In this document: piece by piece, positions 2,024 to 4,836 of the stretch | How the letters are laid out: each line of letters starts with the position of its first letter | Position numbering within the stretch: position 1 is the stretch's first letter | Source of the DNA: Acidimicrobiia bacterium | GTDB taxonomy: Bacteria; Actinomycetota; Acidimicrobiia; Spongiisociales; Spongiisociaceae | Assembly: GCA_011523395.1 (NCBI GenBank) | Contig: WTGW01000121.1 | Coordinates: 1 to 32,053 of the forward strand | Length of the DNA: 32,053 bases | Reading direction: 5' to 3' | The notes under the pieces: generated by a model | What the model was told of the DNA's origin: nothing | Databases searched by the model: none | What the model saw: only the letters and a program-made list of their open reading frames with translations | Made by a program: the position numbers and the translations under genes

Positions 2024-2923
2024 TCAGTAGTAACGGGGGAAGCGCGAGAAGTCCTTCGGACGCTTCTCCACGAAGGCATCCCGCCCCTCCTGGGCCTCTT
2101 CGGTCATGTAGCCGAGGCGGGTGGCCTCGCCGGCGAAGATCTGCTGGCCCACCAGACCATCGTCGATCAGGTTGAAGGCGTATTTGAGCATCCGCTGCGA
2201 CATGGGGCTCTTGGCGTTGATGATCCCCGCCCACTCCAGCGCCGTCTTCTCCAGGTCCGCATGAGGGACCACCTTGTTGACCATGCCCATGCGGAAGGCT
2301 TCCGTGGCCGAGTAGTCGGCGCCGAGGAAGAAGATCTCCCTGGCCCGCTTCTGGCCCACCATCCGGGCCAGGTAGGCCGACCCGAATCCGGCGTCGTACG
2401 AAGCCACATCGGAGTCGGTCTGCTTGAAGACGGCGTGCTCCTCCGAGGCCAGGGTCAGGTCGCACACCACGTGGAGGCTATGACCACCCCCTACCGCCCA
2501 TCCCGGCACCACCGCTATGACCACCTTGGGCATGAACCGGATCAGGCGCTGGACCTCGAGGATGTGGAGCCTGCCGAGACGGGCGGGGTCGATGTCCGCG
2601 GCGCCTTCACCCTCGGCGTACATGTAACCGGCTCTACCGCGAATGCGCTGGTCCCCACCCGACGAGAAAGCCCAACCCCCATCCCTGGGAGACGGTCCGT
2701 TCCCGGTGAGCAGGACGGTCCCCACGTCGCTCCATTGGCGGGCATGATCGAGGGCGATATAGAGCTCGTCCACCGTCCGCGGCCGGAAGGCGTTGCGCAC
2801 TTCGGGTCGATCGAAGGCCACCCGGACCGTTCCCTGATCGACCGCCCGGTGGTAGGTGATGTCGTCGAAGGAGAAACCCTCTACCGGACGCCAGGCATGC
2901 GGATCGAACAGTTCGGAGACCAT
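2024..2923 (-). CDS. menB: 1,4-dihydroxy-2-naphthoyl-CoA synthase
   Basis: This 299-residue crotonase-fold enzyme closes the second ring of menaquinone by converting O-succinylbenzoyl-CoA to 1,4-dihydroxy-2-naphthoyl-CoA. Family marks are RPEVRNAFRPRTVDELY near the N-terminus, the oxyanion/substrate stretch GWAFSSGGDQRIRGRAGY (about 83-100), PGWAVGGGHSLHVVCDLTLA, and the C-terminal RPKDFSRFPRYY. The length and the N-terminus MVSELFDPHAW fit actinobacterial MenB. No Shine-Dalgarno sequence precedes the ATG. Instead the start overlaps the TGA of the upstream selenoprotein gene as TGATG, which suggests translational coupling. No other men genes are in the window. Confidence 0.95.
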   Translation of the reverse strand: MVSELFDPHAWRPVEGFSFDDITYHRAVDQGTVRVAFDRPEVRNAFRPRTVDELYIALDHARQWSDVGTVLLTGNGPSPRDGGWAFSSGGDQRIRGRAGYMYAEGEGAADIDPARLGRLHILEVQRLIRFMPKVVIAVVPGWAVGGGHSLHVVCDLTLASEEHAVFKQTDSDVASYDAGFGSAYLARMVGQKRAREIFFLGADYSATEAFRMGMVNKVVPHADLEKTALEWAGIINAKSPMSQRMLKYAFNLIDDGLVGQQIFAGEATRLGYMTEEAQEGRDAFVEKRPKDFSRFPRYY

Positions 2924-3873
2924 CAGCAGCGGGGGATGTCGCCCGGAGTGCCGGCCCGGCAGGCGATCCCGACCCCGTATGCCGCCACCGCGGCCGTCCG
3001 GTCATCCTGATTCTGGTACTGGGGGGTGTCGTGACGAGGAGTGCGATGATCCTCCGGTCGCAGCGCTGCTGCCTTCCATGGCGCGGGCCACGCGTAGCCC
3101 AACTCCACGATTCCCGGCTGCTCCAAGGTCTCGAACAGCGCCAGGGCGTCGCGCATGATCGACCGCTGCTCCACCGGCCGGTCGGGTGGCCCGCAGGTGT
3201 GGCCCAGCGGGAAGTCGGTGAAAGCCGCCCTAGGGGGGTTGGCCGATGCCGTGATGGAGTGGGCGCTGGTCATGGACAGGGTGGGCACGCCTTTGCTCTC
3301 GATGGCTCTGCTGACCAGCCCAACTGACTGGTGGCACACCGGTCAGACGGGTACCAGCAGCACCGCGTCCACCTCCATGTCGAGGGTACGGTCCACCAGC
3401 ACCGGGATCAGTTCGGAGGCCAGCCGGCGCTGCGAGTAGATGCCGCCCATGAAGGTGAGCGCCAGCGGCGCCAACTCCCCCACAGTGCCCTCGGCAACCA
3501 GGGAACGAAGGGTGTCGATCGGGAAGACCACGTTGGGATCCCGCCGGGCGGCGGTCGGATCGAAGGCGAAGTGAGTCACCCGGACTTCGGCGCTATCCAC
3601 GTCGGTGGGGATCTCCCGGTGGGTCACGTCATCGCGGTGGGTGAAGGCCACCTGCCCGTGCCGGTAGATCCCACCCGAGGCGATCAACCCCAGCCGGGCT
3701 TCCGAGAGCGGTTTGCCGAGCGTGGCCCAGGAAGGCGGATCTTCGTTGAGGGCCCAGCGATAGGGCTGGTAACCCAGCCGGGCATAGGTCTCCCTGGTTA
3801 CGGCGATGTAGTCGATCGGTCGGCGGTCGGGCTCGGTCATGGGCCGATTGTAGGACGTTGCCCGGCCCTCCAT
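2923..3873 (-). CDS. Selenoprotein of the glycine/sarcosine/betaine/D-proline reductase selenoprotein B (GrdB-like) family
   Basis: Two same-frame open segments (3346-3873 and 2926-3342) are joined by a single TGA at 3343-3345. Read through, they give 316 residues with the redox motif U-P-V-C: Sec177 preceded by DAVLLVPV and followed by PVCHQSVGLVSRAIESKGVP. In the GRDB family (PF07355) this context is where selenocysteine sits. The first half carries DYIAVTRETYARLGYQPYRW and DPNVVFPIDTLRSLVAEG; the second has PRAAFTDFPLGHTCG. All are family-like and both halves are well conserved, so this is not a pseudogene. A SECIS-like hairpin follows the UGA at 3314-3332. The chosen ATG has GGAAGG five bases upstream; an alternative ATG lies at 3840. 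Its substrate is unknown: such stand-alone aerobe-type members are distinct from the clostridial reductase complexes. No selA, selB, selC or selD is in the window. Confidence 0.87.
3314..3332 (-). promoter_or_regulatory. Bacterial SECIS-like hairpin
   Basis: Read on the minus strand, ACCAGUC pairs with GGCUGGU (seven pairs including one U-G) around the five-base loop AGUUG. The loop begins 18 bases after the UGA at 3343-3345. A stem of this size, a small loop with G in its first two positions, and a distance of about 16-37 bases from the UGA are the known features of bacterial SECIS elements, which bind SelB. The element lies inside the coding sequence, as expected in bacteria. Confidence 0.75.
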
Positions 3874-3945: not shown

Positions 3946-4836
3946 GTGTGGAAGGTTCCGGAACCGAGTTCGGTGCACGGTGTCCGTCTGGAGGACGGCA
4001 CCCGGATCACTCTGCGCCGCCACGGAAATGCTTCGGGTCCGCGGCTCGTACTGAGTCACGGTAACGGACTGGCTATTGATCTGTACTTACCATTCTGGTC
4101 GTTACTCGCCGAGGACTTTGACCTCATAATCTACGATTTAAGGAACCATGGATGGAACGAAACGGGGTCTTTGAGAGCCCACACCATACCTACGTTCATC
4201 AAGGATCACGACAATGTTCTGGAGGCCATTGATGAGACCTATGGACGGAAACCGAAGATAGGTGTCTTCCACTCCTTGTCCGGCCTGGTAAGCCTCCTGT
4301 CCCCTACAAGGGGAAGCGGCTTCGCGGCACGGATCCTGTTGGATCCACCCCTGTGCACTCCTGGCAGGAGCTACGAGGAGTTCGACATAGCCGCTACCCG
4401 TACAGCGGCCATCGCACGCCGTCGTACCGACAGGTTCCGCTCCTACGATGAATTTGTGGGGCTTCTCGGCTTCTCACCCGTCTTCCGTCAGGTTGTACCG
4501 GGTGTTCTCGATCTGATGGCAAGGACGACTCTCCGCAAGGATGGTACCGAGGACACATATATTCTTAGATGCCCCCGGGAATTTGAGGCACAGATAATCG
4601 ACTACGCCAGCTCGTACTCGGTGCTAGTGGACTTCAACGATGTCGAGTGCCCAACCAAGGTCTTAGGGGCTGACCCATTGGTACCGTACTCGTACCTGCC
4701 CACACTCGACCTCAGTGACATGCTGAGCGTCGACTACGACTTCCTTCCGGAAGCTACCCATTTTCTTCCGCTTGAAGAGCCGGAGCAGTGCGCGGCGATA
4801 GTGCGCGACTACATCAACTCGATCACTGCTACATGA
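3946..4836 (+). CDS. Alpha/beta hydrolase
   Basis: This 296-residue protein starts at GTG. It shows an alpha/beta-hydrolase core: the oxyanion segment VLSHGNGLAIDLYLPFW (about 34-50), strand/turn FDLIIYDLRNHGWNET, the nucleophile elbow GVFHSLSGL with the probable catalytic Ser in HSLSG (about 107-115), a late acid in KVLGADPL, and the His in EATHFLPLEEP near the C-terminus. The substrate cannot be inferred. Its base composition is lower in GC than its flanks and it uses codons such as TTA, ATA and AGG that are rare elsewhere here; the ACP gene that converges on it shares this. A thioesterase-like role with that ACP is possible but unproven. No good Shine-Dalgarno site is visible. Confidence 0.8.
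   Translation: MWKVPEPSSVHGVRLEDGTRITLRRHGNASGPRLVLSHGNGLAIDLYLPFWSLLAEDFDLIIYDLRNHGWNETGSLRAHTIPTFIKDHDNVLEAIDETYGRKPKIGVFHSLSGLVSLLSPTRGSGFAARILLDPPLCTPGRSYEEFDIAATRTAAIARRRTDRFRSYDEFVGLLGFSPVFRQVVPGVLDLMARTTLRKDGTEDTYILRCPREFEAQIIDYASSYSVLVDFNDVECPTKVLGADPLVPYSYLPTLDLSDMLSVDYDFLPEATHFLPLEEPEQCAAIVRDYINSITAT

Follow-up and report, generated by a model that had tools for sequence, protein, structure and literature searches.

Known members of the PF07355 (Pfam GRDB) superfamily include PrdB (TIGR04483), the selenocysteine (Sec) subunit of D-proline reductase, which works with the pro-protein PrdA that makes the pyruvoyl group, and GrdB, GrdF and GrdH, the protein B subunits of the glycine, sarcosine and betaine reductases. 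These reductases are defined by a partner, the alpha/carbonyl subunit of the PrdA or GrdE type, which is covered by PF09338. In the accessible parts of the sources, PrdB carries its Sec in a UxxC motif (PMC2398784 Table 2, PMC13188914) and GrdB in UxxCxxC (PMC13188914). The superfamily does switch substrate: the fluoroacetate reductase FarB/FarE acts on another C-X bond, and FarB, as described in the accessible text of PMC10838667, pairs with a PF09338-type subunit and is without the Cys of CxxC.

Sequences named PrdB have also been counted in ocean metagenomes. In the Sargasso Sea, PrdB with UxxC ranked third in abundance among selenoprotein families, with 42 sequences, beside one GrdA and one GrdB (PMC1088965), and the Global Ocean Sampling data held 235 Sec and 110 Cys forms of PrdB (PMC2398784). 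The accessible sections of both reports ascribe the D-proline reaction to these proteins and make no mention of an absence of PrdA.

Here we describe a gene of this superfamily in a 32,053-nucleotide stretch of DNA (the window) from an Acidimicrobiia bacterium (contig WTGW01000121.1 of assembly GCA_011523395.1). We conclude that it very probably encodes a PrdB-like PF07355 selenoprotein in which Sec177 is inserted by way of a hairpin, and that the product probably acts as a stand-alone protein, perhaps through UxxC chemistry.

The in-frame TGA and its counterparts in relatives

On the minus strand of the window, a frame of 316 codons (2926-3873), recognized from its translation, its matches to TIGR04483 and PF07355 and an alignment of 20 proteins, is interrupted solely by a TGA at 3343-3345 (codon 177) and ends at a stop TGA at 2923-2925. 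The residues around codon 177 read LLVPV-U-PVCHQSVG, with Cys180, which completes the UxxC motif as U-P-V-C, encoded at 3334-3336 and invariant in the 20 aligned proteins. A first-pass annotation of this DNA had described just such a lone TGA within PV-U-PVC, splitting one continuous frame, and had expected ordinary gene calling to break the gene in two; table 11 does yield two ORFs, 3343-3873 and 2923-3339. The NCBIfam model TIGR04483 matches each half (89.5 bits for the 5′ half, 39.6 for the 3′ half) as well as the joined frame (145.5), and we therefore treat the two ORFs as one protein. The position of the first Met in relatives suggests that the ATG at 3838-3840 (codon 12) is the likely start, which would give a protein of 305 aa with Sec at 166.

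The two table 11 ORFs are also what would be expected if the TGA really ended translation, or had arisen by sequencing error or as a disabling mutation, leaving a pseudogene or two genes. Against this, a TGA aligned exactly with codon 177 is found in 30 of 30 relatives' loci, spread over several families. The gene is present in 13 of 15 genomes of the window's own taxonomic family (the two without it are 72% and 78% complete), and an order-level survey of 59 genomes gave matches in 37, every match listed having at least one internal TGA. Sampling of the phylum (396 genomes) returned 92 rows from 78 genomes at E ≤ 1e-10. We took the 76 rows of at least 119 bits (64 genomes) as PrdB-like proper and the other 16, at 55-88 bits, as GrdB type. 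Seventy of the 76 PrdB-like rows have an internal TGA; the remaining six have no stop, and all six have Cys at the site. The same holds for the two named records, Chelatococcus reniformis and a Rhizobiales bacterium, from a contig scan in which Sec was back-translated as Cys codons, a design that detects Cys forms only.

Reading the site in the DNA of 69 distinct homologues gave 61 TGA, 8 Cys and no other codon (these are the best-scoring loci plus six chosen for having no stop, and the share of Cys forms should not be taken as a frequency; the GrdB-type gene of the window's own genome was left out). A quick tree implies at least four changes of state between Sec and Cys. The first-pass annotation had proposed looking for Sec or Cys at position 177 in homologues, and had regarded any other sense codon there, with no conserved downstream half, as telling against its reading; all 69 have one residue or the other, and the downstream half is conserved in every one of them. 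Purifying selection acts on both sides of the TGA, with dN below dS in eight same-genus comparisons (upstream, dN 0.020-0.040 vs dS 0.117-0.334; downstream, dN 0.039-0.067 vs dS 0.134-0.324); in three comparisons over greater distances gaps were not handled, which makes the downstream values (dN up to 0.42) untrustworthy.

The hairpin and the selenocysteine machinery

Bacterial SECIS elements are hairpins that lie at a set distance just past the UGA and carry a G in a small apical loop. The window has a bSECIS-type hairpin at 3314-3332 (minus strand), ACCAGUC / AGUUG / GGCUGGU, with seven pairs, one of them G-U, and its first stem base 10 nt past the UGA, which matches the seven-pair stem, AGUUG loop and spacing reported at first pass. 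Taken alone, this hairpin is not exceptional (48-nt fold z = -1.14; 31 of 200 shuffles at least as stable), a point that sits comfortably with a true stop. The covariation of the stem argues the other way. We examined 53 distinct Sec sequences with 500 shuffles, which break kinship, and with column slides, which keep it. Stem cells were paired in 89.8% of cases vs a shuffled mean of 71.4% (sd 1.3), cells with a double-sided change numbered 41 vs 9.5, and the covariation score was 0.463 vs 0.165; none of the 500 shuffles reached any of these values. Further pair types in the stem (15 vs 11.1 in shuffles) were matched by 4 of 500, and the number of stem pairs with double-sided change (6 of 7 vs 4.3) by 38 of 500. 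Sliding the partner by 1-3 columns lowered pairing to 24-45%.

Six or seven of the seven pairs are kept in 48 of the 53 Sec sequences. The other five, a subgroup with UPDCCxNVP, are without this stem, and single folds suggest that theirs is shifted. Among the loci of this subgroup (L045:2041-2088, L047:1738-1785, L048:1735-1782, L049:1735-1782 and L054:1777-1824), single folds place a hairpin a few bases downstream in some. The eight Cys homologues retain between two and six of the seven pairs and have not all lost the stem. Changes in the protein track the base pairs, with Gln, Arg, Val or Gly after the His and Leu or His four residues on. All 53 sequences have the loop G (column 22), which also lies within a conserved Val codon.

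The window's assembly (genome G000; 239 contigs, 93% completeness, 5% contamination) holds selB (319.5 bits, cut-off 242.25) and selA (421.7 bits, cut-off 267.9) side by side on contig 140, a tRNA-Sec with a TCA anticodon on contig 51 (77 bits, gathering 47) and selD on contig 77 (371.5 bits), which has an in-frame TGA of its own in GGGUASK. The expectation that the host runs a full Sec system is in this way confirmed. Any single gene could sit on a stray contig, a concern of no weight here, where the gene is conserved throughout the genus. In the same genome, contig 175 carries a GrdA gene at 3968-4408 (PF04723, 189 bits) with one in-frame TGA; because GrdA adds this further TGA, the genome has at least four UGA-containing genes.

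Placement of the window's genome in Actinomycetota is supported by its RpoB, whose best solved relatives are 8dy7 and 7vpd, Streptomyces and mycobacterial enzymes, followed by others. Across the phylum sample, SelB (E ≤ 1e-60) was found in 57 of the 64 genomes that carry a PrdB-like gene vs 171 of the 332 others (Fisher p = 5e-9, kinship ignored). Seven of the 64 had no SelB match at this threshold (G239, G335, G345, G372, G380, G397 and G430), and five of these seven are less than 90% complete. The first-pass view that selenoproteins are patchy in Actinomycetota does not hold in this sample: SelB is matched at E ≤ 1e-60 in 228 of 396 genomes, with 214 of these above the family cut-off, and Sec coding is common there. 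Because SelB is also present in Cys-form genomes of the phylum (G069, G083, G099, G110, G414 and G429), the Cys form is no mark of lost Sec coding.

Since the genome has selA, selB, tRNA-Sec and selD, the UGA can be read as Sec. We conclude, from evidence at the level of sequence, that the UGA at 3343-3345 almost certainly inserts Sec, as first proposed; the 61 Sec and 8 Cys forms, the covarying hairpin and the machinery genes all bear this out. The exchange of Sec with Cys alone, the covariation, the purifying selection past the TGA and the complete machinery leave a true stop with next to no credence, and conservation rules out a pseudogene.

Family identity and the missing partner subunit

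We assigned the protein by comparing its scores with the cut-offs of the named families. The joined frame scores 38.8 bits and its 5′ half 41 bits against PF07355, above the gathering score of 22. PrdB is the top-scoring named family, although its 145.5 bits fall short of the equivalog cut-off of 300. GrdB (TIGR01917) gives 48.2 bits against 602.2, and the NCBIfam GrdB-type models as a set just 47-56 bits. The 316 aa compare with a full length of about 430 aa for GrdB, and the Pfam GRDB match starts at profile position 221, with the first ~220 positions absent. GrdB identity is ruled out by score and length, which corrects the first-pass label "GrdB-like", and neither equivalog cut-off is reached. 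These matches point to a selenoprotein of the PF07355 superfamily with PrdB as its nearest named family.

The protein shares with PrdB homology across both halves and the UxxC Sec motif, and differs in reaching half of the equivalog cut-off, in having no adjoining prd cluster and in that PrdA was not found. With GrdB, GrdF and GrdH it shares the Pfam GRDB match and a Sec at the aligned place, whereas it has UxxC in place of the UxxCxxC given for GrdB in the accessible part of PMC13188914, is missing the N-terminal ~220 profile positions, and comes mostly from genomes in which the GrdE/GrdA partner is absent. Relative to FarB as described above, it is the reverse, having the Cys and not the paired subunit.

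No alpha/carbonyl subunit of the PrdA/GrdE type (PF09338) lies beside the window gene. We found PF09338 in 16 of 396 genomes, namely all 14 that have GrdB-type rows only, together with G000 and G344, which have both types. It occurs in 2 of the 64 PrdB-like genomes vs 14 of 14 GrdB-only genomes, and was not detected anywhere in the other 62 of these 64 sampled draft genomes. In both G000 (contig 49) and G344 (contig 11), the PF09338 gene adjoins the GrdB-type gene. GrdA was found in 15 of 78 genomes, 13 of them GrdB-only and the other two again G000 and G344. A search for PrdA (TIGR04480) at E ≤ 1e-20, in which no positive-control genome matched, found none in 396 of 396 genomes, the window's own included, where the closest gene scores 38.4 of 700 bits.

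These results bear on two readings that would give the protein a partner. The first is that it serves a D-proline reductase as its Sec subunit PrdB, with PrdA supplying the pyruvoyl group, which would accord with TIGR04483 being the top-scoring model in both halves and with the naming of such sequences as PrdB, with the proline reaction, in the accessible text of PMC1088965 and PMC2398784. We reject it on the score and on the missing PrdA and PF09338 genes, the genome's only PF09338 gene being the neighbor of another GrdB-type gene on contig 49, and we regard it as highly improbable. The second reading is that the protein borrows the GrdE-type subunit of contig 49 and the GrdA of contig 175 and thereby adds a further arm to a system resembling glycine reductase. 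The genome does have both a PF09338 gene and a GrdA with an in-frame TGA, and one GrdA can serve several types of protein B according to the accessible text of PMC10838667. The window gene is near neither of them, however, and PF09338 and GrdA accompany just the same 2 of 64 PrdB-like genomes; with the first ~220 Pfam GRDB positions also absent, borrowing seems quite unlikely.

Because PF09338 went undetected in 62 of 64 genomes, with a like pattern for GrdA, we consider it probable that the product is a stand-alone protein, acting in these draft genomes without the partner that defines the proline, glycine, sarcosine and betaine reductases.

The contig-49 genes of G000 merit a description of their own. 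A second UGA gene, of GrdB type (TIGR01918, 417.1 bits, cut-off 65.45), lies at L018:5744-7054 on the minus strand, directly behind the PF09338 gene at L018:7080-8372, likewise on the minus strand. Its protein has Sec347 within STUGTGTRSG, and no Cys follows this Sec. Among NCBIfam models, the PF09338 gene scores 236.9 bits against sarcosine GrdG and 129.2 bits against fluoroacetate reductase FarE, both below cut-off. This pair bears a closer likeness to FarEB than the window protein does. By analogy with FarB, which is likewise without the Cys pair in the accessible account (PMC10838667), the contig-49 pair is possibly a reductase of another C-X bond.

Gene neighborhood, proposed mechanism and meaning

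The gene is followed by menB (1,4-dihydroxy-2-naphthoyl-CoA synthase; 2024-2923, minus strand; NF006186 573.2 bits and TIGR01929 407.9 bits, both above cut-off). In the window, L104-L107 and L109, the start of menB overlaps the stop of the selenoprotein gene by one base (TGATG), and menB lies downstream in 9 of 9 same-family loci examined, the window included. Such an arrangement would suit a role in menaquinone metabolism, with the selenoprotein either partnering MenB or acting on a naphthoquinone or CoA intermediate. We consider this role unlikely: gaps of 123, 99 and 419 bases separate the genes in L108, L110 and L111, and in the neighborhoods examined, where gene names were assigned by eye for all but ten proteins, menB was not seen beside the gene outside the window's taxonomic family.

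Beyond this family, ORF clustering and reading of 40-odd neighborhoods, with genes found by a crude amino-acid-composition filter, gave no widely recurrent operon partner except among close kin; no redox partner is conserved beside the gene, and neighbors vary by lineage. A family scan confirmed several single-case neighbors, which we do not count as proof: a glutaredoxin gene (65.3 bits) within the L111 gap before menB, a peroxiredoxin gene after the Cys form in Chelatococcus (L082), an arsenite methyltransferase, an arginase and a proline dehydrogenase. In one genome, the gene immediately upstream of the PrdB-like gene is that of the arsenite methyltransferase (L119:8440-9240; NF008823, 293.6 bits, cut-off 263). 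In three loci of one lineage, the PrdB-like gene is followed by a gene for a small protein (80-100 aa) with many helix-forming residues (L112:7382-7690, L113:8474-8719, L114:7731-8030); the L114 protein, the sole one of the three scanned, had no Pfam match.

All 20 aligned proteins carry the motif U-P-x-C. In an AlphaFold2 model built from this alignment with Sec modeled as Cys (mean pLDDT 86.5, pTM 0.87; the other four models 76-80), strand 170-174 is followed by residue 177 and then by helix 178-192, which puts the U/C-x-x-C at the N-terminus of a helix. In the model, residue 177 would occupy the usual place for a reactive selenol with a resolving Cys. We found no sequence match among solved structures (best E 0.14), and a Foldseek search with the model gave no PDB match of any fold at E ≤ 0.001 (best E 0.0054, TM 0.26), with no match to the thioredoxin fold among them. 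The protein may work like a UxxC thiol/selenol oxidoreductase, and it is no member of the thioredoxin family.

In the mechanism we propose, the hairpin at 3314-3332 would cause SelB to bring Sec-tRNA to the UGA at 3343-3345, and Sec177 would be inserted. At the start of the helix after the beta strand, Sec177 would attack an electrophilic substrate, Cys180 would resolve the Se-bound product or selenenylsulfide, and a thiol of the thioredoxin or glutaredoxin type would re-reduce the protein. Within the window's own taxonomic family, the gene would be co-expressed with menB. We lean slightly toward this UxxC selenol-thiol mechanism with recycling by thioredoxin or glutaredoxin, the thiol-oxidoreductase step being suggested by the motif and the model; the single glutaredoxin and peroxiredoxin neighbors would be in keeping with it.

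This kind of selenoprotein is already known, such sequences having been counted as "PrdB" in ocean metagenomes (PMC2398784, accessible text). Those described in the accessible text of PMC1088965 and PMC2398784 resemble the window protein in their UxxC, in their assignment to pfam07355 and in having Sec and Cys forms side by side; in the Sargasso set (PMC1088965), GrdA and GrdB are nearly absent, as in the genomes examined here. From these descriptions we infer that metagenomic "PrdB" may be of the same stand-alone type. The newer point is the missing partner subunit; we found no description of PrdB-type proteins without PrdA in the open-licence PMC literature searched. Evenly balanced, in our judgment, is the broader proposal that these proteins form a separate, widespread family of stand-alone Sec-dependent enzymes without a pyruvoyl or other PF09338 subunit, and that much of what ocean and soil metagenomes list as "proline reductase PrdB" is such an enzyme and not proline reductase.

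Annotation cuts the gene at its UGA and, where the gene is found, the family name points to D-proline reductase. If the protein does act alone, then one of the sea's more abundant selenoprotein families, by the accessible counts of PMC1088965 and PMC2398784, would be without a known reaction. The question is open to experiment, given the small size of the gene, its naturally occurring Sec and Cys forms and the option of expressing it from a laboratory host's own SECIS.
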